NCBI RefSeq assembly: GCF_947489565.1
Contig: NZ_CANLEA010000014.1
Location: 1 to 64,000 of the forward strand
Length of the DNA stretch: 64,000 nucleotides
Direction: 5' to 3'
Origin: an uncultured Kordia sp.
GTDB lineage: Bacteria > Bacteroidota > Bacteroidia > Flavobacteriales > Flavobacteriaceae
The notes below the pieces were generated by a model. The model saw only the letters and a list, made by a program, of their open reading frames with translations, had not been told where the DNA came from and ran no database searches. The translations under genes were made by a program, and so were the position numbers. This document shows positions 26,994-47,039 of this stretch, piece after piece. Position 1 is the stretch's first letter, and the number at the start of each line of letters is the position of its first letter.

Positions 26994-29855
26994 TTATTGT
27001 TTGATAACTCTTCTTGTAATTTTCGAGTTACTTTCTTTATCTGTAATATTTAATAAATACATTCCTGATTGTAAAGAAGATAGATTGATTTGTACGGTAC
27101 TACGCAACGTATTCTCTTCTTGATATACTCTTCTTCCCGAAACATCATACAATTCAATAGTAATGTCAAAAGATTGATTTGCAGAACTCTGAAGGTTTAA
27201 GACTCCATTTGTCGGATTTGGATAAGCGCTAAAATTGATTCTACTTGCAAAATCTTCCACACTCAATGGATCTTCTCTTGTGACTGTTATCCAGTTATCA
27301 GAGATATCTTCACAATCATCATCTGCTAAGGTTGAAATATGATCGCCTACCGTTGGATTTGGCAATCCTCTGTAATTCCATCCCCAAACGTGGCACTCTC
27401 CTACTGGAGCTGCACTTAAGTCTAACGTGTTTCCATTAGCAGCATTCTGCCATGCTAAGATGTTGTCATTATCATCTGTAATAATGTACCAGTATGATAA
27501 GTTTGGAGCCGTTGTAGTATGTGCTACATCAAAAACGATATTTCCTGCTTGTCCTGTATATGAAGTGGTTGTACCATCAGCAAGTGTTACTGTTCCTCCA
27601 TCTGGAACTTCTCTATAAACCGTTACCCAGTTATCTGAGATATCTTCACAATCATCATCTGCTAAAGTTGAAATATGATCACCTACGGTTGGATTTGGAA
27701 GTCCTCTGTAATTCCATCCCCAAACGTGACATTCGCCTGCTGGAGCTGCACTTAAGTCTAAAGTGTTGCCGTTAGCTGAGTTTTGCCAAGCTAAGATGTT
27801 ATCATTGTTATCTGTGATGATGTACCAATATGATATATTTGTTGCAGTCGTTGTATGCGCGACATCAAATACGATGTCTCCTGCGCAGTTTGCATACGAA
27901 GTAGAGGTTCCGTCAGCTAAGGTTACTGTTCCACCATCTGGAACTTCTCTATAAACCGTTACCCAATTGTCTGAAATGTCTTCACAATCATCATCTGCTA
28001 AGGTAGAAATATGATCACCTACGGTTGGATTTGGAAGTCCTCTGTAATTCCATCCCCAAACATGACATTCGCCTGCTGGAGCAGCACTTAAGTCTAATGT
28101 ATTTCCGTTGGCTGCATTCTGCCAAGCTAAGATGTTGTCATTATTATCTGTGATGATATACCAATACGATAGATTTGGGGCTGTCGTAGTGTGTGCAACA
28201 TCAAACACAATATCACCTGCACAATTCGCATAAGAAGTAGACGTTCCGTCTGCTAAAGTAACTGTTCCACCATCTGGAGTTTCTCTATATACGGTTACCC
28301 AGTTGTCTGAGATGTCTTCACAATCATCATCTGCTAAAGTAGAAATATGATCTCCTACCGTTGGATTTGGTAATCCTCTGTAATTCCATCCCCAAACATG
28401 ACATTCGCCTGCTGGAGCAGCACTTAAATCTAATGTGTTTCCATTTGCAGCATTCTGCCAAGCTAGGATGTTGTCATTATTATCTGTGATGATGTACCAA
28501 TACGATAGATTTGGGGCTGTCGTAGTATGTGCCATATCAAACACAATATCACCTGCACAGTTAGCATAAGAAGTAGATGTACCGTCTGCTAAAGTAACTG
28601 TTCCACCATCTGGAGTTTCTCTATATACGGTTACCCAGTTGTCTGAGATGTCTTCACAATCATCATCTGATAAAGTAGAAATATGATCTCCTACTATTGG
28701 ATTTGGAAGTCCTCTGTAATTCCATCCCCAAACGTGACATTCTCCTGCTGGTGCAGCACTTAAGTCTAATGTGTTACCGTTTGCAGCATTCTGCCATGCT
28801 AAGATGTTGTCATTATTATCTGTGATGATATACCAATACGATAGATTTGGGGCTGTCGTAGTATGTGCCATATCAAACACAATATCAACTACACAGTTAG
28901 CATAAGAAGTAGAGGTTCCGTCTGCAAGCGTTACTGTTCCACCATCTGGAACTTCTCTATAAACCGTTACCCAGTTGTCTGAGATGTCTTCACAATCATC
29001 ATCTGAAAGTGTTGAAATATTTTGACCTACTACTGGATTAGGTAAACCACTATAACTCCATCCCCATACATGGCATTCGCCAGCAGGAGCCGCACTTAAG
29101 TCTAACGTGTTGCCGTTAGCTGAGTTTTGCCATGCTAAGATATTATCATTGTTATCTGTGATGATGTACCAATATGATATATTTGTTGCAGTCGTTGTAT
29201 GCGCGACATCAAATACGATGTCTCCTGCGCAGTTTGCATACGAAGTAGAGGTTCCGTCTGCTAGTGTCACCATTCCTCCGTCTGGAGCTTCTGGACAAGT
29301 ACCATTTTCAGCGCCCAATGTAGAAACATACGCTCCATAATCGCCAGCTGTATTTCCATCACCATCAAATTGAATAGATAATGAACTATCGAATGCAGGA
29401 ATATAATTTCCAGTTGTCCAAGTGCCCGCAGCAACTGCTACACTTGATCGTTGGTGACCTGTAGATCCCCATTCAATATAATCGACAATAGCCGCACTAC
29501 TTGAGAAAGCAGCAGAAGAATACAATCCGAGTTCTCCATCGGTACTATCAATAAAATTAAAACCGCTGATTTCTACGATAGCCCCAGCCGCTAACATCAG
29601 ACTTCCAGATTCAACAGTAATAGAAGCATCATCTAAGCGTTCGTAGGCTGGAAAATCGCATAGCCAATACGTTGAAACATCAACTGTAGATGCGCCTAGG
29701 TTTTTAAGTTCAATAGAACCTGTTTCCTTCACTTCATTGATTACTATTTGTGCATTGGAAATTCCGTAGCTAAATAAAACCAATGTCAGAAAAACAAATT
29801 CTTTGGGATGGGCAATTAGATATTTGCACCAATAATCGAGTAACTTTTTCATCAT
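26994..29855 (-). CDS. T9SS-secreted protein with lamin-tail-like domain and six 112-residue repeats
   Basis: This 953-residue protein is exported: the signal peptide ends near SYGISNAQ (about 36). Residues 37-185 resemble a lamin-tail domain (IVINEVKETGSIELKNLG, then LYSSAAFSSSAAIVDYIEWG). Six tandem repeats of about 112 residues (about 190-860) follow, each starting PDGGTVTLADGTSTSYANC and ending DDCEDISDNWVTVYRE. They are nearly identical at DNA level. The end is a T9SS type A tail (YPNPTNGVLNLQ, ending ITRRVIKQ). Each repeat has a conserved Cys pair (YANC ... GECHVWGW ... DDCED) that could be disulfide-bonded. The function is probably surface display or adhesion; the repeat family is not one I can name. 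Confidence 0.85.
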   Translation of the reverse strand: MMKKLLDYWCKYLIAHPKEFVFLTLVLFSYGISNAQIVINEVKETGSIELKNLGASTVDVSTYWLCDFPAYERLDDASITVESGSLMLAAGAIVEISGFNFIDSTDGELGLYSSAAFSSSAAIVDYIEWGSTGHQRSSVAVAAGTWTTGNYIPAFDSSLSIQFDGDGNTAGDYGAYVSTLGAENGTCPEAPDGGMVTLADGTSTSYANCAGDIVFDVAHTTTATNISYWYIITDNNDNILAWQNSANGNTLDLSAAPAGECHVWGWSYSGLPNPVVGQNISTLSDDDCEDISDNWVTVYREVPDGGTVTLADGTSTSYANCVVDIVFDMAHTTTAPNLSYWYIITDNNDNILAWQNAANGNTLDLSAAPAGECHVWGWNYRGLPNPIVGDHISTLSDDDCEDISDNWVTVYRETPDGGTVTLADGTSTSYANCAGDIVFDMAHTTTAPNLSYWYIITDNNDNILAWQNAANGNTLDLSAAPAGECHVWGWNYRGLPNPTVGDHISTLADDDCEDISDNWVTVYRETPDGGTVTLADGTSTSYANCAGDIVFDVAHTTTAPNLSYWYIITDNNDNILAWQNAANGNTLDLSAAPAGECHVWGWNYRGLPNPTVGDHISTLADDDCEDISDNWVTVYREVPDGGTVTLADGTSTSYANCAGDIVFDVAHTTTATNISYWYIITDNNDNILAWQNSANGNTLDLSAAPAGECHVWGWNYRGLPNPTVGDHISTLADDDCEDISDNWVTVYREVPDGGTVTLADGTTTSYTGQAGNIVFDVAHTTTAPNLSYWYIITDDNDNILAWQNAANGNTLDLSAAPVGECHVWGWNYRGLPNPTVGDHISTLADDDCEDISDNWITVTREDPLSVEDFASRINFSAYPNPTNGVLNLQSSANQSFDITIELYDVSGRRVYQEENTLRSTVQINLSSLQSGMYLLNITDKESNSKITRRVIKQ
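27270..29286. repeat. six 336-bp near-identical tandem repeats
   Basis: The complement of the NWVTVYRE coding stretch recurs about every 336 bp (near 27613, 27950, 28286, 28622 and 28958). Copies differ by scattered synonymous and few coding changes. The frame is kept because 336 is 3 x 112. Such arrays are prone to expansion, contraction and misassembly. Confidence 0.88.
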
Positions 29856-30017
29856 TTCATTTTTTTTGTTTGATTAATTTCTGATGCAAATAAACGCTCG
29901 GAAGCCCTGTATATACAATATAAATATGGTGAAGCGGAAAAATAGCCTGTGAACGTGACGATATATTGAGTGAAAAAATTAACTATTTTAAGAAAGTTGG
30001 AAAACTAGTCTTTAGGA

Positions 30018-30265
30018 TAGTTTGTTTCTGATTAACGAGAAGCTTTTAAAGTGAACTAAAAGTTTGTTTCAGGTTTGCAAGATGTTTTCAAAGTAACACA
30101 AAAGTATGTTACAGCAGTGCGAGAACATTTCGGTATTTCCCGAAAGCTCGTTGCAGCGTTGCGAGACGCTTTTGTAAGTTCCCGAAAGCTTCCTGCAGCA
30201 CTGCGAGACGTTTTTGTAAGTTCCCGAAAGCTTGTTGCATTGCTGCGAGAAGGTTTCGGGGGCAG
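30018..30265. repeat. 42-bp tandem repeat, about six graded copies
   Basis: The units start at 30018, 30060, 30102, 30144, 30186 and 30228. Units 3 and 4 are nearly identical (core TGCGAGACG ... GTAAGTTCCCGAAAGCT) and units become progressively less similar toward the left. Because 42 is divisible by three, one frame (30075-30293) stays open and would encode a 14-residue amphipathic repeat (VAALRDAFVSSRKL). I see no start context or homology that makes this a definite gene. Confidence 0.8.
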
Positions 30266-30398
30266 TTTTATTGAGAATTTTTCAATAAAATGATTAAAAA
30301 TGATGGTTTTATTGCGGAATTCACAAAATGAGGATTTTCGTTGTTTTGAACTTGATTTAGTATGTTATTGTAAGATTTGGTAATGGGTTACGGGAAAC

Positions 30399-30433
30399 CA
30401 CATTGCATAGTTGTAATCTTTGTTTTACTTTTA
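30399..30433 (+). promoter_or_regulatory. promoter of the primase-RT-nuclease operon
   Basis: CACATTG (30399-30405), a 20-bp spacer and TACTTTTA (30426-30433) fit -33/-7. The same layout and flanking bases occur upstream of two lipoprotein genes at 34944 and 42213. It predicts a leader of about 125 nt. Confidence 0.65.
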
Positions 30434-30564
30434 CAGGAAATAATAGAGCCTTTAGTATGGTTAGTTCCTGTTATTTCTTAATAATTATTGTAAAAGCAGG
30501 AATTCCCGTTATACATACTTGAATAGCCATTATCCTAAACCCGAACTCAGAAAAAAAATTATTA

Positions 30565-31590
30565 TTGAAATCAACTAATGAATTATTAAAGCTTAAAGTA
30601 TCATTTCAAGAAAATGCTTGGGCGAAATTATCTAATGAAATTTCAATACAAGAATCTCTGGAACGAATAAGGTCTGAAGCTTTTAAAATTAAGATAACTG
30701 AATTAAGACATTATCTAGAAAATGAGAATAAAGCGGAATACGATAAAAATAAAGTAAAGTTACCAGCAGTAACGTTTTGTGCTACATTCAATAACAAAAG
30801 GCAAAAAGACAAATTAAAAAGCTATAATTCAATTGTAGTAATTGATATTGACAAACTTGAAAAAAAAGAGCTAAGTAAAGTTTGGGATTTTTTATTAAAT
30901 GATGAATTAATTTTTACTTTTTGGAAATCTCCTTCAAATAAGGGAATAAAAGGATTAATATCCATTCAATATGATTTTGAACTAAATGATACAAATCTAG
31001 ATTTAGCACATAAGAGTGCGTTTAGCAAATTATCAGATTATTTTAACAATAAATATCAAATTGAATTAGATAAAAGCGGTAGTGACACAACACGTTTATG
31101 CTTTTTTTCTTATGATTCTGAGTTAATTTTAAAAGATAAGTACAAACCGTTTGAAGTTTTAGAATCTGACCTATTAATATTAAGAACAAAGAAGACTAAT
31201 AAAGCAAAAAGGGTTAAAAATGTTAGTAATCAAGATTCTTTATACAATCCTGAAAATAGGAACAATCAAAGTGATAGAAAAACTATAGGTTCAATAATTA
31301 AATTTATGGAACGTAAGCAAATATCAATTACACATTCGTATGTAAACTGGTATAAGGTTGCAATGTCTATTGCAAATTCATTTACTTATGATATTGGTTT
31401 AAAATATTTTAAAAGACTAAGTGCTATTGATAAAGAGAAATATGATGAAATTAATTGTATTAACTTTTTACTGAACTGTTATGATTCAAGAAACGGCTCT
31501 ATCAAATTTAATTCATTAATACATTTAGCAAACGAAAAAGGATATTTAACTAAACAACAAAAGAAAAAGGGTTCTGAGGTGGAAGGGTAA
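30565..31590 (+). CDS. BT4734/VirE_N-type primase (AEP superfamily) with PriCT-like C-terminus
   Basis: A 341-residue protein. Residues about 50-185 match the BT4734-like / VirE N-terminal branch of archaeo-eukaryotic primases. VVIDIDKLEKKEL near 91 supplies the metal-binding DxD (D94, D96). WKSPSNKGIKGLISI near 120 is the ligand loop. LDKSGSDTTRLCFFSYDSEL near 170 is the family's D-S-G-S-D-x-x-R-x-C-F motif. Residues about 250-330 (HSYVNWYKVAMSIAN ... FNSLIHLANEKGY) resemble primase C-terminal PriCT domains. No in-frame ATG lies near the N-terminus, so TTG at 30565 is used. It is first in an operon with an RT and a nuclease. It could make primers or short templates for the RT; that is inference. 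Confidence 0.82.
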   Translation: MKSTNELLKLKVSFQENAWAKLSNEISIQESLERIRSEAFKIKITELRHYLENENKAEYDKNKVKLPAVTFCATFNNKRQKDKLKSYNSIVVIDIDKLEKKELSKVWDFLLNDELIFTFWKSPSNKGIKGLISIQYDFELNDTNLDLAHKSAFSKLSDYFNNKYQIELDKSGSDTTRLCFFSYDSELILKDKYKPFEVLESDLLILRTKKTNKAKRVKNVSNQDSLYNPENRNNQSDRKTIGSIIKFMERKQISITHSYVNWYKVAMSIANSFTYDIGLKYFKRLSAIDKEKYDEINCINFLLNCYDSRNGSIKFNSLIHLANEKGYLTKQQKKKGSEVEG

Positions 31591-31736
31591 CCTCTCGCAA
31601 GTATCATCCTCAATAACGGTATTTTTCAGTCATTTACTATGAGGACCTAAAAAAAATGGCTTGGCATTTATATGTCAGTATCTTTGTCAATATGTGCGTA
31701 AGCACTTTACAGGAACCCTTTTTCTTATTTTAAGCC
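31591..31736 (+). ncRNA. possible structured RNA between primase and RT genes
   Basis: The 146-bp gap has nested complementary segments. TCCTCA (31607-31612) can pair with TGAGGA (31640-31645). GTGC-GTAA-GCAC (31694-31705) makes a GNRA-type hairpin. ATGGCTT (31656-31662) can pair with AAGCCAT (31732-31738), which covers the RT start codon. RT-based systems often carry a template or cofactor RNA just upstream of the RT. No promoter was identified, and the pairing has not been computed. Confidence 0.3.
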
Positions 31737-33536
31737 ATGAAAGAATTTTCAACTTATTTCACAGAAAGAGCAATTGTTACTCACATTTGTAAAATACGTG
31801 TGAAAATCGCTAAAACTCGAAACAAAAAACATCTAATTCACCTTCTAACTGATTCTAAAAAATATAACTATCATATAAAGGAACGTGATCCTTTTAATGA
31901 AAATGATTTCACTAAGTATCAATTTGAGTTAAATAAACAATTAAGTAAAATTCTTCCTCCGAGAAAAAAATGGATAAAACTTGGTTATAAATCAAGAATG
32001 AATAGGAATGGAACAGAAAAATTGACTTCAAATGATAAGAATTTTTATTCCTTACTAAAAACAATAAAGCTTTACAGGAAAAAAGAACCTACAGCAAGTT
32101 GGCTCATTGAATTAGATAGTTTTATAAAAGAAATCCAACAAGCAATTAAAAATGATAATTTTCAAATAAAACCGCCATTGATTTTTCCTAAATTAAAGGA
32201 AGACACAATTTCTAAAACAGATATTAACAAGTGTCGACCTATTTCAATGTTTTCATTGAAAGAAAGAATTATATTGAGTATAACGAACAAATATTTAACA
32301 CATCTATTTGATGGTTATTTTCAAGATTCATCTTATGCTTTCCGTGCTAAAAGAAACGAACAAGGTAATATAATTTCTCATCATGATTGTATTAAAGATG
32401 TAATTAAATTAAAAGAAGAGAACACTAATGAACCATTATATGTCGTTGAGTGTGATATGGAAAAATTTTATGATTCTGTTAATCACAAAATAGTTAGAGG
32501 TTTATTTAATAAACTAATACAAAAATCTAAAAAAGATAGCCCAAAAATTAACTTTAAAGTGATAAAAAATATTTTCAATGAGTATTTAAACTGTTACGCT
32601 TTTAATAAAAATGTTCCTTTATCAAATGATATTGAATATTGGACTAGTTATAACATTCCAAATGGAGAGTTTGGCTGGGTTAAGAAAAGATTAAAAGAGT
32701 TAAATTATTATTCTAATATCGACCAAGAAAGAATTGGTGTCCCTCAAGGAGGTGCTTTGTCTGGCTTAATTGCTAATATAGTTCTTAACGAAGCTGACAA
32801 AAAAGTTTTAAAAACAGAAGTTTTTTATATTCGTTTTTGTGATGATATGCTAATACTTCACAAGGATAAAAACAAATGTGACGATGCAAAAAACATCTAT
32901 ATAAAATCATTGGAAGAATTAAAATTAGTTCCACATAAATTTGAAAATAATCTTGTAAAAAGATTAAAAAAATCATCTCGAAACACAACTGAACCATTTT
33001 GGTATTCTAAATCAAAAGGTTCTTATAAATGGGATTCAATAAAAAATGGAGGATTTCCTTGGATTGGTTTTGTTGGATATGAACTGCATCATAAAGGGAA
33101 TATTCGTGTTAGAAAAAAATCTTTAGAAAAAGAACTTAAAAAACAACAAAAAATAGTAAATGAAATTGAGAATGCAATAAAACTCGGTCAAAGAAAGGTG
33201 AAAAGTTATGTTGTAGAATCTGCAATAAATAGATTAATTGGAATGTCTGTTGGGAGAATTGGTTTAAATAATTTCGAGGAAGCTTCTAGCGATATGTGTT
33301 GGAAAAATGGTTTTAAAGAATTAAAATTAAATGATGATTCTAAGAGACAAATTAAACAATTGGACAGAAATCGCAGTAAACTATATTATGACTTGTTAAA
33401 ATCAGTAAAAAGTCCAGAAAAAGACGATAAGGATAGTGAAGACAAAAAGCGAAAAAGACAAATTATTTTTTATGACAAACCTTTTAGTTATTATTACCAA
33501 GTATTAGAACGGAGTGAACAAAATACGAATGACTAA
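31737..33536 (+). CDS. reverse transcriptase (RNA-directed DNA polymerase), defence-type candidate
   Basis: A 599-residue RT with the full palm-finger motif order: CRPISMFSLKERIIL near 165, YVVECDMEKFYDSV near 236 (first catalytic Asp about 240), IGVPQGGALSGLIANIVL near 333, and RFCDDM near 367 (the YxDD box as FCDD, both Asp present). GFPWIGFVGYEL then GNIRVRKKSLEKE marks the thumb start near 442. The C-terminal 130 residues are charged and helical with no endonuclease or maturase domain. PQGGALSG argues against the diversity-generating type, and no retron VTG motif is seen. Its stop is 2 bp before the nuclease start. It is probably one of the unknown/Abi-related defence RT groups; the exact class is not determined. 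Confidence 0.88.
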   Translation: MKEFSTYFTERAIVTHICKIRVKIAKTRNKKHLIHLLTDSKKYNYHIKERDPFNENDFTKYQFELNKQLSKILPPRKKWIKLGYKSRMNRNGTEKLTSNDKNFYSLLKTIKLYRKKEPTASWLIELDSFIKEIQQAIKNDNFQIKPPLIFPKLKEDTISKTDINKCRPISMFSLKERIILSITNKYLTHLFDGYFQDSSYAFRAKRNEQGNIISHHDCIKDVIKLKEENTNEPLYVVECDMEKFYDSVNHKIVRGLFNKLIQKSKKDSPKINFKVIKNIFNEYLNCYAFNKNVPLSNDIEYWTSYNIPNGEFGWVKKRLKELNYYSNIDQERIGVPQGGALSGLIANIVLNEADKKVLKTEVFYIRFCDDMLILHKDKNKCDDAKNIYIKSLEELKLVPHKFENNLVKRLKKSSRNTTEPFWYSKSKGSYKWDSIKNGGFPWIGFVGYELHHKGNIRVRKKSLEKELKKQQKIVNEIENAIKLGQRKVKSYVVESAINRLIGMSVGRIGLNNFEEASSDMCWKNGFKELKLNDDSKRQIKQLDRNRSKLYYDLLKSVKSPEKDDKDSEDKKRKRQIIFYDKPFSYYYQVLERSEQNTND

Positions 33537-33538
33537 CA

Positions 33539-34393
33539 ATGTATAAAAATAACCTTGACTGGAAAGAATACGAAGCTATAACAAAATACATCTATGAAAC
33601 ATTAGGTAAGGAATCTGGTGTTACAATTTTAGGGTATGGAAATAGTTGTAAAGTAAAAGGAAAATCTGGGGTTTATCATCAAATAGATGTTTTAACAAGT
33701 CACTCTGACGGAATTCATGGTTACAGGACAGCAATAGAATGTAAATATTTAAAAAAGAAAGTAACAAAAGATACCATTATGAAAGTGTTGAATATTATTC
33801 AAGATGCTCAAATAGAAAAAGGTATTATAGTTTCAAAAAGTGGTTTTACTAAAGATGCTTTTGATTTTGCACAAATGTATAATATTGGACTTGTTGAACT
33901 AAGGGAAGTAGAAGATAAAGACTTTCGCGATAATCCAAAAGAAATCCATTTTGGAGATTTAATATTAAACAGTAAAATAATTATAACACGACCTCAAATA
34001 TTGAATATAGACATTGGGAATAATAAAAGTATAGAAATCAAAGAAGAGTGGGATTATTATAAATATTTCATAAGATTAGAAAACCATACTAAAATTCCTT
34101 TAATAGAATATGTTAACAAATTTCGAAAGGAAATAAAACGCATAAATAAGAAAACTGAAAAAGTCATTAAGCAATATAAAATTCCAAATGCAACTATTTT
34201 TAATAAAGAAACTACGACTTCTATAAAAATTGATCAAATTACTTTTACGGGTCGATTAATAGATATCGACGCTAGTCAAAGCATGAACTTTAGATTAGTT
34301 GATAAAGTGTGGTTAATAATGAAATCAATATTTGAAGAACGGACATTTACTTTTTCTGAGAATGGATTGATTGTAGAGCGAAAAAGAAAATAA
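33539..34393 (+). CDS. Mrr-like PD-(D/E)xK restriction endonuclease domain protein
   Basis: A 284-residue protein. Residues about 5-130 form a restriction-endonuclease-like domain: WKEYEAITKYIYETLG near 8, YHQIDVL near 46 (first catalytic Asp), and YRTAIECKYLKKKV near 61 (the ExK pair). The GIIVSKSGFTKDAFDFAQMYNIGLVEL helix-strand block near 99 is typical of Mrr-like nucleases. The C-terminal half has a novel strand-rich region without known motifs. It lies 2 bp behind the RT, so it is surely co-transcribed and probably the effector of the cassette. It may cut invader or RT-derived DNA; the target is unknown. Confidence 0.85.
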   Translation: MYKNNLDWKEYEAITKYIYETLGKESGVTILGYGNSCKVKGKSGVYHQIDVLTSHSDGIHGYRTAIECKYLKKKVTKDTIMKVLNIIQDAQIEKGIIVSKSGFTKDAFDFAQMYNIGLVELREVEDKDFRDNPKEIHFGDLILNSKIIITRPQILNIDIGNNKSIEIKEEWDYYKYFIRLENHTKIPLIEYVNKFRKEIKRINKKTEKVIKQYKIPNATIFNKETTTSIKIDQITFTGRLIDIDASQSMNFRLVDKVWLIMKSIFEERTFTFSENGLIVERKRK

Positions 34394-34496
34394 TATTGTA
34401 AGCTAAAATAATTGTGAACAAATTAATCTAATTAAAACTATCAAATAAAACTCTCCCCCATTTTTCACTACCTTAGCTTCTCCAAAATACCACAAA

Positions 34497-34940
34497 ATGA
34501 CCAAAACCACCACAAAACTCCAACAATTACTAAATAAAGGTACAACATACTTCAAGCAAACTCCCGAATCAGAATTAAGCCGAAAAGTATCGGTTGATAA
34601 ATGGTCAAAAAAAGAAATTCTAGGGCATTTAATTGATTCCGGAATCAATAACCTTCAACGATTTACGGAAATTCAATTTGTTGAGAAACCGTATCGCATC
34701 AGAACGTATCATCAAAATGAATTGGTACAAGCGAATGATTATCAAAACGCTGAAACCAAAGAGATTGTTGATTTTTGGAACGCACTCAATCATCGAATTC
34801 TAAATGTCATGAAGCAACAAACAGAAGAAACGCTCAATTATGTGATTGAATTGGATACAGATAATAGCTGTGATTTGCGATTTTTAATGACAGACTATGT
34901 AGAACATATGGAACATCACTTGAAACAAATATTGAAATAA
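34497..34940 (+). CDS. DinB-like four-helix-bundle protein
   Basis: A 147-residue cytoplasmic protein of the DinB/YfiT-like metal-binding superfamily. WSKKEILGHLIDSG (about 40-53) supplies the first His, and DYVEHMEHHLKQIL at the C-terminus supplies the His pair; these three His form the usual metal site. The family includes thiol-dependent transferases, but no substrate can be read here. It begins 104 bp behind the nuclease gene and is probably ordinary chromosomal sequence flanking the RT cassette, since its base composition is less AT-rich. Confidence 0.85.
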   Translation: MTKTTTKLQQLLNKGTTYFKQTPESELSRKVSVDKWSKKEILGHLIDSGINNLQRFTEIQFVEKPYRIRTYHQNELVQANDYQNAETKEIVDFWNALNHRILNVMKQQTEETLNYVIELDTDNSCDLRFLMTDYVEHMEHHLKQILK

Positions 34941-34943
34941 ACC

Positions 34944-34978
34944 CACATTGCACATGTTTCATCTTTGTGGTACATTTA
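34944..34978 (+). promoter_or_regulatory. promoter of the esterase-like lipoprotein gene
   Basis: CACATTG (34944-34950), 20 bp, then TACATTTA (34971-34978), with the shared spacer core ATCTTTGT and downstream AGGAAATAA also seen at 30399. The leader is about 40 nt to the ATG at 35027. Confidence 0.65.
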
Positions 34979-35026
34979 TAGGAAATAACCAAAGTTCTTT
35001 AACCAACCTATAAATAACCAACCAAA

Positions 35027-36787
35027 ATGAAAGCATCTAATAACGCATTTTCAAATGTATATTATTACTTAATCATTGTCTTCTCCTTCTGTATATTCTC
35101 CTGTACAGATTCAGATAAAAAAGAAGATACTTCCGTAAACATAGAGTTTTCGTTCCCAACGGCACATTATAAAGAAGCATTAGACGGAAGATTGATCTTA
35201 TTAATCTCAAAAGATATAGAAACCGAACCGCGCTTTCAACTTCGAGATGATTCCAAAACTTGTCAAGGCTTCGGAATGGATATTACCGACTGGAAACCGA
35301 ATGAAACACAACAATTTGATGCAACTGCGTTTGGATATCCTATACAAAGCTTTGCAGATTTACCATCGGGGGAATTTTATGTGCAAGCCCTATTTCATAA
35401 ATACGAAACTTTTAATCGTGCAGACGGACATGTAGTAAAATTACCAATGGACAGAGGCGAAGGACAACAATGGAATCGCGCGCCAGGCAACCTCTACTCT
35501 ACGCCGCAAAAAGTTACGATTAAAGATGGACAACTTCCATCACTAAACATACAATTCGATCAAAAAATACCACCGATTACAGCACCTGAGGACACAAAAT
35601 ATGTAAAGCATATAAAAATCAAAAGTAAAATATTAAGTGATTTTTGGGGAAGAGATATGTATATAGGCGCGCATGTATTATTGCCTGAAGGTTGGGATAC
35701 ACATCCGAATGTAAAATATCCGCTTGCCATTATGCACGGACATTTTCCAAAGGATTTTGGAGGATTTCGAACCACACCTCCCGATCCGAATCTGAAACCA
35801 GAATACAGTGAACGATTTGATGTAGAAGGCTATAATGTAATGGTACAACAAGAAGCGTATGATTTTTATAAAACTTGGACAAGTCCTGATTTTCCTAGAG
35901 TCATTGCCATTAAAATTCAACATCCAACACAATACTATGACGATTCGTACGCCGTAAACAGTGAAGCACAAGGACCGTATGGCGATGCGCTTACCTATGA
36001 ACTCATTCCTTACATTGAGCAACAATTTAGAGGCATCGGAGAAGGCTGGTCGCGCTTTGTATATGGCGGAAGCACTGGTGGATGGGAAGCATTAGCAGTA
36101 CAAGTAAAATATCCTAAGGAATACGGAATGTGTTTTGCGGCGTGTCCCGATCCAATCGATTTTAGAGCGTATTGTTTGGTAAACATTTACGAAGACGAGA
36201 ACGCATATTATGAGGAAGGAACTTTTAGAAAAACCTTGGTTGCTGGGCATCGAGATTACTTAGGAAATGTAGATGCTACCTTGAAAGATATGAATTACCG
36301 TGAATTGGTCTTAGGTACCAAAGGACGCTCAGGACAGCAATGGGATATTTGGGAAGCTACGTATTCTCCCATCGACAAAGAAGGATATCCGAAGCGAATT
36401 TGGAATCGCCTTACAGGAGAAATTGATAAAGAAGTGGCTGCCTACTGGAAAGAAAATTACGATCTCGCTTATATTATGAAAAGAGACTGGGCAACACACG
36501 GAAACGATTGGAAACATAAAATTCACTTGTATTGTGGCGATATGGACAATTATTATTTGAACAACGCTGTATACCTTGCGGAAGAAATCTTATCAGAAAC
36601 CACTGAACCTTATTACGACGGTGAAGTAGACTATGGCGATCGTGCAGAACATTGTTGGAACGGAGATCACGACAATGGAAATCACATTAGCCGATTGCGC
36701 TATCACCGCATGTTTATCAAAAAATATGTAGAAAAGGTTCATAAAGTAGCTCCAAAAAATGCTGACTTAACAAGTTGGAGGTATTGA
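35027..36787 (+). CDS. esterase-like alpha/beta hydrolase lipoprotein
   Basis: A 586-residue probable lipoprotein: the N-terminal hydrophobic stretch ends in IFSC (Cys near 26). Residues 40-180 are a strand-rich domain. From about 195 onward the sequence looks like the putative-esterase alpha/beta hydrolase fold: YPLAIMHGHFPKDFGG near 234, and YGGSTGGWEALAVQVKYP near 346 with the nucleophile-elbow Ser in GGSTGG. The late segment HDNGNHISRLRYHRMF is a likely source of the catalytic His. It is probably a periplasmic or outer-membrane hydrolase of esters; the substrate is unknown. It has its own conserved promoter. Confidence 0.8.
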   Translation: MKASNNAFSNVYYYLIIVFSFCIFSCTDSDKKEDTSVNIEFSFPTAHYKEALDGRLILLISKDIETEPRFQLRDDSKTCQGFGMDITDWKPNETQQFDATAFGYPIQSFADLPSGEFYVQALFHKYETFNRADGHVVKLPMDRGEGQQWNRAPGNLYSTPQKVTIKDGQLPSLNIQFDQKIPPITAPEDTKYVKHIKIKSKILSDFWGRDMYIGAHVLLPEGWDTHPNVKYPLAIMHGHFPKDFGGFRTTPPDPNLKPEYSERFDVEGYNVMVQQEAYDFYKTWTSPDFPRVIAIKIQHPTQYYDDSYAVNSEAQGPYGDALTYELIPYIEQQFRGIGEGWSRFVYGGSTGGWEALAVQVKYPKEYGMCFAACPDPIDFRAYCLVNIYEDENAYYEEGTFRKTLVAGHRDYLGNVDATLKDMNYRELVLGTKGRSGQQWDIWEATYSPIDKEGYPKRIWNRLTGEIDKEVAAYWKENYDLAYIMKRDWATHGNDWKHKIHLYCGDMDNYYLNNAVYLAEEILSETTEPYYDGEVDYGDRAEHCWNGDHDNGNHISRLRYHRMFIKKYVEKVHKVAPKNADLTSWRY

Positions 36788-42133: not shown

Positions 42134-42212
42134 CACTTCTTGTGATGTATATTGAGTTTGTAAAAAGCCAGTCAAAAAATTTACACTGAGCCTGTCGAAG
42201 TGTACGGGAAAC

Positions 42213-42247
42213 CACATTGTGTATGTGTGAGTTTTGTTTTAAATTTA
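42213..42247 (+). promoter_or_regulatory. promoter of lipoprotein gene 42305
   Basis: CACATTG (42213-42219), 20 bp, TAAATTTA (42240-42247). The 17 bases TACGGGAAACCACATTG are identical to those at 30389-30405. The leader is about 50 nt. Just upstream TACACT / AGTGTA (about 42182-42204) forms a small hairpin around GAGCCTGTCGA. Confidence 0.65.
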
Positions 42248-42304
42248 GAGAACTTACAAAAGTTCCTTTAGTATATCTGTGAAAGGAATTATAAAATATC
42301 AAAA

Positions 42305-45680: not shown

Positions 45681-47039
45681 ATGAGCAATTGTTATTTATG
45701 TAATGTAACTTTAGAAGCACATGTTGATTCCAGCACTAAAAATCACTATGAACACGTAATTCCTCAAGCTTTAGGAGGACAATTGAAAACACCTGGAATA
45801 CTTTGTAAAACTTGTGGAGGCGAAGAATTTCTTGGCGGAAAAGTAGATAAACCTTTCTGTGATATTTTTACTTTAATTACAGAACGACTTGATATAAAAA
45901 AGGATAGAAAAACTAATTCAGTTGGACTTGATGGAAAACTTCATTTAATAGATTCAAGTGAATCTATTGATATTATTTTAAAGGATAAGATATTGTCTAA
46001 TAAGCGACCGGAATACAAGATTGACCATAATAAAAAAGTTGCTTATGTATTCGCAAATAAGAAAGTAGCTAAGAGCTTTAAATTCAAAGTTCAAAATGAG
46101 TTAAAAGAACAAGTTTCGAATCATTCAGATTATAGCATCGAAATTGTTTCATCGTTAAATGATTATTTAGGTGTTATAGAGTTTCCTTTCAATCTTGTTA
46201 ATAATGTTTTTGAAAAAGGATTTATAAAAATGGCCATTGAATTTGCTTTAAGCAAAGGTGTGGATTATGATACAATAAAGCATCTAATTGATCGAGAAAA
46301 CAAAACTATTAAATGCAACAATAATGTAATACCATACTATCCTATTGCTAAAATTGAAGAAATGATGGAATATGTAAGAACAGGTATAGATGCAAATTTC
46401 ATGTCACATTCTTTAGTTCTTTTTTCTCAACGACGAATCAGCAAAAAAGGAAAAGAAATTAAAGAATTGTATTGTTTTATTGAGTTGTTTGGTACGTTCC
46501 AATATTTTGTTGAATTAAGCGATAATTATATCGGAGAAAATATTGAACCTGAAACTTATGCACAAAGAATAATAAGACATCAAGATTCTGACTATAAAAT
46601 TCATGGACTTGATTATAAAGACTTATCAATTGTTCTAAAAGAACTAGGTTTAGATAATAAAGATGTTGATGGATTAAGTTACGAAGACATATGTGTAAAG
46701 CTTCAAAACATCTATGACAAGAAAAATAAATACATTTATGATTATAAGAAAAATGCTAAACGTATAGTAGATTCAATAATTAGAAATAAAATATTAAACC
46801 GAAATAACGATTTTTTAAGTATGTTTAAAAGTTTACAACCCCATTTTTATTGGAATATGGAGGAAGATACATTCCACATAACATTTTACCGTTCAAGATT
46901 TATGAAAGAAGAAAACCCATATTCAATTATTCCTGAGATAAAGGAATTATATATTAATAACAAAGAAAAAATCACTAGATATACTTACTTCAAATTTAAA
47001 GAATTAGGAGGCTTTATTGAAGAAAATAAAAGTGTATGA
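45681..47039 (+). CDS. HNH endonuclease protein
   Basis: A 452-residue cytoplasmic protein. The N-terminus is a zinc-type HNH nuclease: CYLC near 4, HYEHVIPQALGG near 22-33 (His plus the catalytic E-H-V-I-P-x-x-L-G-G), and ILCKTCGG near 40. The remaining 400 residues are strongly charged, AT-rich coding sequence with no motif I recognise. The lone gene with a nuclease N-terminus and novel C-terminus suggests a defence or mobile-element role, which is inference. A hairpin at its end faces the convergent DUF5777 gene. Confidence 0.78.
   Translation: MSNCYLCNVTLEAHVDSSTKNHYEHVIPQALGGQLKTPGILCKTCGGEEFLGGKVDKPFCDIFTLITERLDIKKDRKTNSVGLDGKLHLIDSSESIDIILKDKILSNKRPEYKIDHNKKVAYVFANKKVAKSFKFKVQNELKEQVSNHSDYSIEIVSSLNDYLGVIEFPFNLVNNVFEKGFIKMAIEFALSKGVDYDTIKHLIDRENKTIKCNNNVIPYYPIAKIEEMMEYVRTGIDANFMSHSLVLFSQRRISKKGKEIKELYCFIELFGTFQYFVELSDNYIGENIEPETYAQRIIRHQDSDYKIHGLDYKDLSIVLKELGLDNKDVDGLSYEDICVKLQNIYDKKNKYIYDYKKNAKRIVDSIIRNKILNRNNDFLSMFKSLQPHFYWNMEEDTFHITFYRSRFMKEENPYSIIPEIKELYINNKEKITRYTYFKFKELGGFIEENKSV

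Follow-up and report, generated by a model that had tools for sequence, protein, structure and literature searches.

The closest described systems to the locus reported here are antiviral reverse transcriptases (RTs) of the unknown groups (UG) and certain primase-polymerases. UG17/DRT10, DRT9 and DRT2 are RNA-templated antiviral RTs (PMC12632851, PMC13213688). In DRT9 (UG28; RT and non-coding RNA (ncRNA), making poly-dA) and DRT10 (UG17; RT, ncRNA and SLATT) the template is carried by the ncRNA, which in DRT9 is also a scaffold, and synthesis is primed from a C-terminal Ser of the RT in DRT10 and probably from a C-terminal Tyr in DRT9 (PMC12483538, PMC12632851). Two polymerase activities lead to duplex DNA in DRT7 (UG10; an RT-primase fusion) and in DRT3 (two RTs) (PMC13213688, PMC13174585). 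CRISPR-associated primase-polymerases (CAPPs) prime and extend on DNA templates, the VirE_N primases among them, CAPP_B, preferring DNA templates (PMC8211822), and the PriCT-2 domain is related to the primase large subunit (PMC5862659). A 2021 survey found about 45% of UG28b RTs beside VirE_N (PMC8934634), and we suggest that this UG28b may be UG39 or a sister group. Here we analyse a stretch of 64,000 nucleotides from an uncultured Kordia sp. (assembly GCF_947489565.1, contig NZ_CANLEA010000014.1, positions 1 to 64,000 of the forward strand; referred to as the window), which carries a UG39 RT, a VirE_N-type primase and, between their genes, a predicted structured RNA.

Three open reading frames (ORFs) lie on the same (+) strand of the window and all of them are intact. 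The 146-nt gap between the primase and RT genes contains the structured RNA, which was missed in an earlier note made from the letters of this DNA. New in our analysis are the predicted RNA, the candidate template within it and the two-strand model that would result. The features are as follows.

30565 to 31590, + strand: VirE_N (BT4734-like)/PriCT-2 primase (PADLOC RTasVirE-PriCT2), TTG start, 341 aa, with the D94 and D96 motif.
31561 to 31726, + strand: predicted structured ncRNA of the UG39 RT, beginning in the last primase codons and ending 10 nt before the RT start.
31561 to 31575, + strand: 5' arm of the closing stem P1, AAGAAAAAGGGTTCT.
31579 to 31598, + strand: hairpin P2.
31607 to 31645, + strand: hairpin P3, with two-sided changes in 5 of 5 modelled pairs.
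31662 to 31677, + strand: short hairpin P4, the weakest helix; in the window's own minimum-energy fold the stretch has other pairings.
31674 to 31693, + strand: candidate loop, GTCAGTATCTTTGTCAATAT, which we infer to be the template.
31694 to 31705, + strand: hairpin P5, GTGCGTAAGCAC, with two-sided changes in 4 of 4 modelled pairs.
31712 to 31726, + strand: 3' arm of the closing stem P1, GGAACCCTTTTTCTT.
31737 to 33536, + strand: UG39 RT, 599 aa, active-site D240, D369 and D370, C-terminal tail PFSYYY (S584, Y585, Y586).
33539 to 34393, + strand: Mrr_cat/PDDEXK nuclease, 284 aa, with D50, E67 and K69; a local accessory, not conserved with UG39.

Comparison of the RT with the PADLOC models gave 684 bits (E 4e-206) for UG39, followed by the general RT model (86 bits) and, among the named models, UG17/DRT10 (79 bits), DRT9 (78 bits) and DRT2 (76 bits). 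Its Pfam match is RVT_1 (E 3e-21), and the catalytic D240 and C368-D369-D370 are in place and conserved with at most one exception among 29 RTs. UG39 was also the best match of all ten further RTs tested (nine divergent and one of the main clade), and the window's genome has a single RT copy. The group II intron RT model TIGR04416 reached 103 bits against a cut-off of 300, and no group II RNA was among the Rfam matches up to E 5 at 29800 to 35000, which agrees with the earlier note in placing the enzyme with the antiviral-type unknown-group RTs and not with group II introns. The primase scored 418 bits with RTasVirE-PriCT2 and matched BT4734-like_N at E 6.9e-26, PriCT_2 remaining just below its cut-off (21.4 vs 22 bits), and its DxD motif is present in all 24 primases examined (23 by pattern, L037 by eye). 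The nuclease, whose ATG follows the RT stop by 2 bp, matches Mrr_cat at E 5.1e-11 (43.1 bits, cut-off 21). ORF calls and domain matches therefore agree with what had been noted of these proteins, namely three intact genes in one direction with the catalytic residues in place. The AT-richness noted before is also evident, since the segment 30565 to 34393 has a G+C content of 26.9% compared with 38-40% in the flanking genes, and among 241 equal-length windows taken in 250-base steps none is as low except the segment itself (start 30501).

Judged by these matches, the genes are a catalogued UG39 RT-primase pair, and the ordinary reading is correct for the genes. PADLOC already has DRT models for both proteins (PDLC03778, PDLC03818), so the pair is not the 'new' RT-based system that had been proposed. 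UG39 RTs with an associated primase are reportedly also covered by the UG survey of Mestre et al. (2022). A literature search by name found no paper on UG39; the Mestre et al. survey lay outside its coverage and an earlier mention of a UG39 RNA is possible.

The two PADLOC entries describe the same RT family with a separate primase gene. Beyond these entries and the compared text of PMC8934634, we find the predicted ncRNA, the candidate template and the tail motif, together with a primase-less OLD/PDDEXK-like branch and the local Mrr nuclease. The proposed likeness to DRT10 lies in an operon ncRNA formed by a large stem with several hairpins, a template loop just 3' of a stem-loop, a C-terminal Ser as primer and a third component (PMC12632851). 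However, the partner in UG39 is a primase and not SLATT, and the candidate UG39 loop is conserved in sequence whereas that of DRT10 is not. DRT9 is similar in its upstream ncRNA, its conserved template segment and its C-terminal tyrosines as probable primers (PMC12483538), but the UG39 loop is of mixed sequence and not a U-tract, and UG39 has a primase. With DRT7 and DRT3 the common feature would be the pairing of two polymerase activities to give duplex DNA; the UG39 primase is, in contrast, a separate VirE_N/PriCT-2 protein, and a DRT7/UG10 fusion was rejected for this reason and for the low score of the UG10 model (39 bits). CAPP_B shares the VirE_N catalytic domain (PMC8211822) but was likewise rejected as an identity for the primase (NF040562 61.2 bits vs cut-off 200).

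For the comparative analysis 32 UG39 loci were used, the window included, of which 18 form a main clade and 14 are divergent. Twelve loci came from genome contigs and the others from overlapping samples of genomes searched at E 1e-40; fetches with identical match figures were counted once (for example L015 and L024 as L002, L020 and L029 as L008, L038 as L010). Genomes with a UG39 RT match at this threshold numbered 1 among 396 others of the family, 4 among 394 others of the phylum sample, 6 among 299 from the genus that includes G528, 12 among 296 from the family that includes G408 and 1 among 128 from the order that includes G743. A plasmid search (E 1e-30) yielded one plasmid-borne locus, and no relatives were found in viral contigs (close relatives only) or phage records (E 1e-15). 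The primase is the regular partner of the RT and adjoins it in 29 of the 32 loci, in 25 of them upstream on the same strand and in four as a divergent gene (L026, L030, L031, L032). RT and primase distances are correlated (r = 0.957, 0 of 2000 permutations) over 24 of the 29 primase loci, with L007, L011, L013, L034 and L039 left out, which is as expected of any pair inherited together. On the evidence of gene order and sequence divergence, RT and primase are a tight unit with conserved linkage and co-divergence. Beside one UG39 locus with its own primase there is a second BT4734-like primase gene (L062:4804-6087, 33.8 bits).

A covariance model of the RNA (R1), seeded with L039, L009 and L012, detects all 18 main-clade loci (15 besides the seeds), each with at least 64 bits, and the window itself with 113 bits (E 1.2e-24). 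In the R1-based alignment, which was fitted to the structure and is hence biased towards it, 92.6% of the cells pair and 18 of the 28 base pairs show two-sided changes; 60 cells carry such changes compared with 17 in shuffles (0 of 500 reaching the observed value) and no more than 7 after sliding of the partners. RNAalifold on an unfitted MAFFT alignment recovered P2 and P3 only, with nine of 11 pairs changed on both sides, and missed P1, P4 and P5 because these helices are shifted between the MAFFT rows. Over 22 RT-positive genomes R1 gave one match in each of nine, always just 5' of the RT, and none in 13; over 121 genomes of the genus of G528, under stricter filters, matches above 60 bits occurred only in two RT-positive genomes. 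A 30.5-bit match in G781, with no UG39 protein in the surrounding 12 kb, was discarded as chance, as were the four Rfam matches up to E 5, all of which are below their gathering scores and outside the RNA. Covariation thus identifies a conserved RNA and fold in the main clade.

In many divergent loci the region before the RT is closed by a stem of clade-specific sequence, examples being ATAGAGAGTACCT/AGGGACTCTCTAT, GATTAGCCCTG/CGGGGCTAATC and AAGCGAGAAGAAGC/GCTTCTTCTCTTTT. The stem score was matched by at most 10 of 200 shuffles in 24 of the 32 loci, and the fold energy of the 200 nt before the RT by at most 5 of 100 shuffles, again in 24 of 32. Seven loci have a primase that is divergent or missing; four of these pass at least one of the two tests for a structured region before the RT (L026, L027 and L045 by the stem; L033 and L045 by fold energy) and three fail, and because of this it is likely, though not proven, that the RNA is attached to the RT rather than to the primase.

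The stretch of the RNA proposed as template is the loop at 31674 to 31693, where on average 0.88 of the 18 main-clade rows have the window's letter, compared with 0.65 for the whole RNA; among the stretches compared it is second only to the linker at 31599 to 31606 (0.91). The loop is directly 3' of the small and weakly supported hairpin P4, as is the template position in DRT10. A direct repeat of 3-6 nt is present in 18 of 18 loops, spaced by 12 nt in 12 of them (GUCA in the window) and by 6 nt in L006, L007, L008 and L013, and repeats so spaced could enable realignment. Three of the 18 (L004, L005, L008) beat 95% of shuffles; since shuffles often give a repeat as long, a claim of repeat addition is weak, and the A-B-A' arrangement was not accepted as proof of DRT10-like synthesis. 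The RT tail [FY]SY[YF] is present in all 27 RTs with an intact end, from an alignment of 29 of the 32 RTs (L011, L013 and L034 excluded for length; L039 and L027 lack the tail).

Taken together, these features suggest that UG39 is probably a DRT-type defence module of primase, ncRNA and RT, in which copying of the loop would fall to the RT and second-strand synthesis to the primase. The RT would bind the ncRNA, as in DRT9 and DRT10, and would start cDNA from the Ser or Tyr of its [FY]SY[YF] tail, copying the loop at about 31674 to 31693 over and over. The primase would then prime the cDNA or copy it into a second strand, and the repetitive DNA would harm infected cells or trigger an effector, which would halt the spread of phage; the Mrr-like nuclease, encoded so close to the RT, may be an additional effector that this strain recruited. 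Second-strand synthesis seems the most natural role for the primase because of its resemblance to CAPP_B and the relation of PriCT-2 to the primase large subunit (PMC8211822, PMC5862659). We do not favour the suggestion of the earlier note of a primase that primes the RT or supplies its template, since CAPP_B relatives prefer DNA templates (PMC8211822) and the ncRNA is the likelier template.

Several observations weigh against this reading and have to be set beside it. R1 gave no significant match in the 14 divergent loci (best E 0.048, in L030), the closing stem is not significant in 8 of the 32 loci, and L009 has its best stem in a register other than that of the model. By fold energy 8 of the 32 loci fall short of significance, among them L006, L013 and L035 of the main clade, and neither stem nor fold is significant in L030, L031 and L032. 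Within the RNA, P4 is paired in just 66% of cells, and the minimum-energy fold of the window pairs part of the proposed template loop, with a z of only -2.0. In 15 of the 18 loops the A-B-A' repeat lacks significance, that of the window being equalled in 270 of 1000 shuffles. No primase lies beside the RT in three of the 32 loci (L033, L045/L056 and L027), and Pfam searches of 13 window neighbours found no defence system apart from one gene with an HNH endonuclease domain, the genes at 35027 and 37107 being outside that search.

The RNA might instead act in cis on the RT mRNA, as a leader or processing element (attenuator, translational switch or cleavage site), and be neither partner nor template of the enzyme. 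In favour of such an element, the RNA ends 10 nt before the RT start, a pyrimidine-rich sequence comes after the closing stem, and stem and fold both fail in three of the four divergent-primase loci. We nevertheless consider a leader unlikely, as structured regions precede the RT in the four loci named above, which makes it likely that the RNA does not depend on the primase gene, and main-clade conservation is highest, among the stretches compared, in the 20-nt loop and the 8-nt linker. Rfam, searched up to E 5, has no match within the RNA, which points the same way, and an upstream position is also seen for the DRT9 RNA, which precedes its RT (PMC12483538), and for the DRT10 RNA, which precedes the SLATT gene (PMC12632851). 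The long inverted repeat which closes the RNA raises the further thought of a retron-like system, in which the RT makes branched multicopy single-stranded DNA (msDNA) and the end-to-end repeat corresponds to a1/a2. Retron RNAs are closed by such a long inverted repeat. A retron identity is nonetheless highly improbable and was rejected for the RT, which reaches only 40.9 bits with NF038233 (cut-off 235) against the 684 bits of its UG39 match, while the window fold has no long msd-like hairpin.

The RT and primase could serve a purpose other than defence, such as DNA repair or the replication of a mobile element, as mobile elements often carry PriCT-domain archaeo-eukaryotic primases (AEPs) and VirE proteins (PMC5862659, PMC8211822) and one UG39 locus is plasmid-borne. 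We hold this to be very unlikely, given that no transposition or integration gene was found among the window neighbours searched by Pfam, that the genome has one RT copy, and that a preprint states all experimentally characterised UG enzymes to be implicated in defence (PMC12632851). The module may, on the other hand, be larger than we propose, with all three genes forming one system and the nuclease as its dedicated effector, as the earlier note proposed. The 2-bp spacing and the equally low G+C of the nuclease gene favour this, and in the primase-less L033 and L056 the gene directly 3' of the RT encodes another protein, one that has a PDDEXK-like motif. However, tblastn at E 0.01 did not find the window nuclease in any other fetched UG39 locus (L011 ends inside the RT, and L039 and L044 have little downstream sequence), and it has no significant similarity to the 343-aa protein of L033. 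Its relatives at E 1e-15 among 217 other phylum-sample genomes are two, in G586 (56% identical) and G524 (40% identical), with neither UG39 RT nor primase in the 12-13 kb around them. A conserved three-gene system was therefore rejected, and a dedicated effector role seems rather unlikely; we read the nuclease as a recent local addition, which perhaps does and perhaps does not work with the RT. Further searches gave two weak nuclease relatives among 59 other relatives' genomes, eight distant ones on plasmids (best 27% identical over 83%) and none in viral contigs.

Of 18 UG39 loci examined for context, nine of them with PADLOC, half (nine) have an adjacent gene of defence-system type, a count based on one or two genes chosen per locus and made with no background control. 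AAA_15/21 ATPases are beside the RT locus in L007, L008, L013, L026, L033, L056 and L060, a type III methylase is the neighbour in L012 and an AIPR/AbiU-like protein in L006. Among congeners of the window's genome, G1427 and G179 retain DNA on both flanks of the operon and G1425 on the downstream flank; the operon is absent from the 15-kb stretches of all three, and Pfam searches of ten genes that G1427 and G179 carry in that interval recognised none as defensive. The HNH gene of the window lies at 45681 to 47039, about 11 kb 3' of the operon, and its endonuclease domain is HNH_5 (31.8 bits, cut-off 27.5).

The primase-less UG39 branch spans L033:5639-10304 and L056:5858-10629, and there an OLD-like AAA/TOPRIM ATPase comes first, then the RT and then a protein of 343 aa with a PDDEXK-like motif, which matches PDDEXK_15 weakly in L033 (22.5 bits, cut-off 27) and no Pfam family in L056. 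This ATPase/RT/343-aa branch may be a separate defence system.

The position 30399, given before as the start of the feature, falls inside an interspersed repeat of about 131 bp (30388 to 30518) just 5' of the primase gene, and not in a gene. Matches to this repeat, some of them partial, number 11 in the window's genome, 11 in G179, 9 in G1425 and 1 in G1427, with a partial copy at 42203 to 42274; over its whole length it forms an imperfect hairpin, and eight more copies have nearly identical ends. In this genus it may act as a small mobile or recombination element. Two arrays of 42-bp tandem repeats (30019 to 30250) are present between the operon and a secreted-protein gene (26994 to 29855, - strand), which encodes a Por secretion tail and contains six 336-bp tandem repeats, 87% matching. 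The 'one promoter' claimed for the three genes was not recovered, as an exact search of the + strand around the operon with a Bacteroidota-type consensus pattern gave no match.

Antiviral RTs related to that of UG39 make DNA from small RNAs, and the predicted RNA and loop make the catalogued 'RT plus primase' directly testable: which DNA is made, and does the primase make its second strand? If it does, reverse transcription of a first strand and fill-in by a primase would be combined in a single bacterial immune system. A preprint ties DRT10 to telomerase. We propose, as a doubtful extension of the module described above, that UG39 could be a bacterial counterpart of telomere synthesis, with double-stranded DNA repeats as an immune signal or toxin. 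A telomerase-like RT would copy a short loop in its own RNA into a first strand of tandem repeats, the predicted unit in the window being d(AAAGATACTGAC)n if GUCA is the realignment site, and the dedicated AEP primase with its PriL-related PriCT-2 domain would synthesise the complementary strand in the manner of Pol alpha-primase at telomeres.

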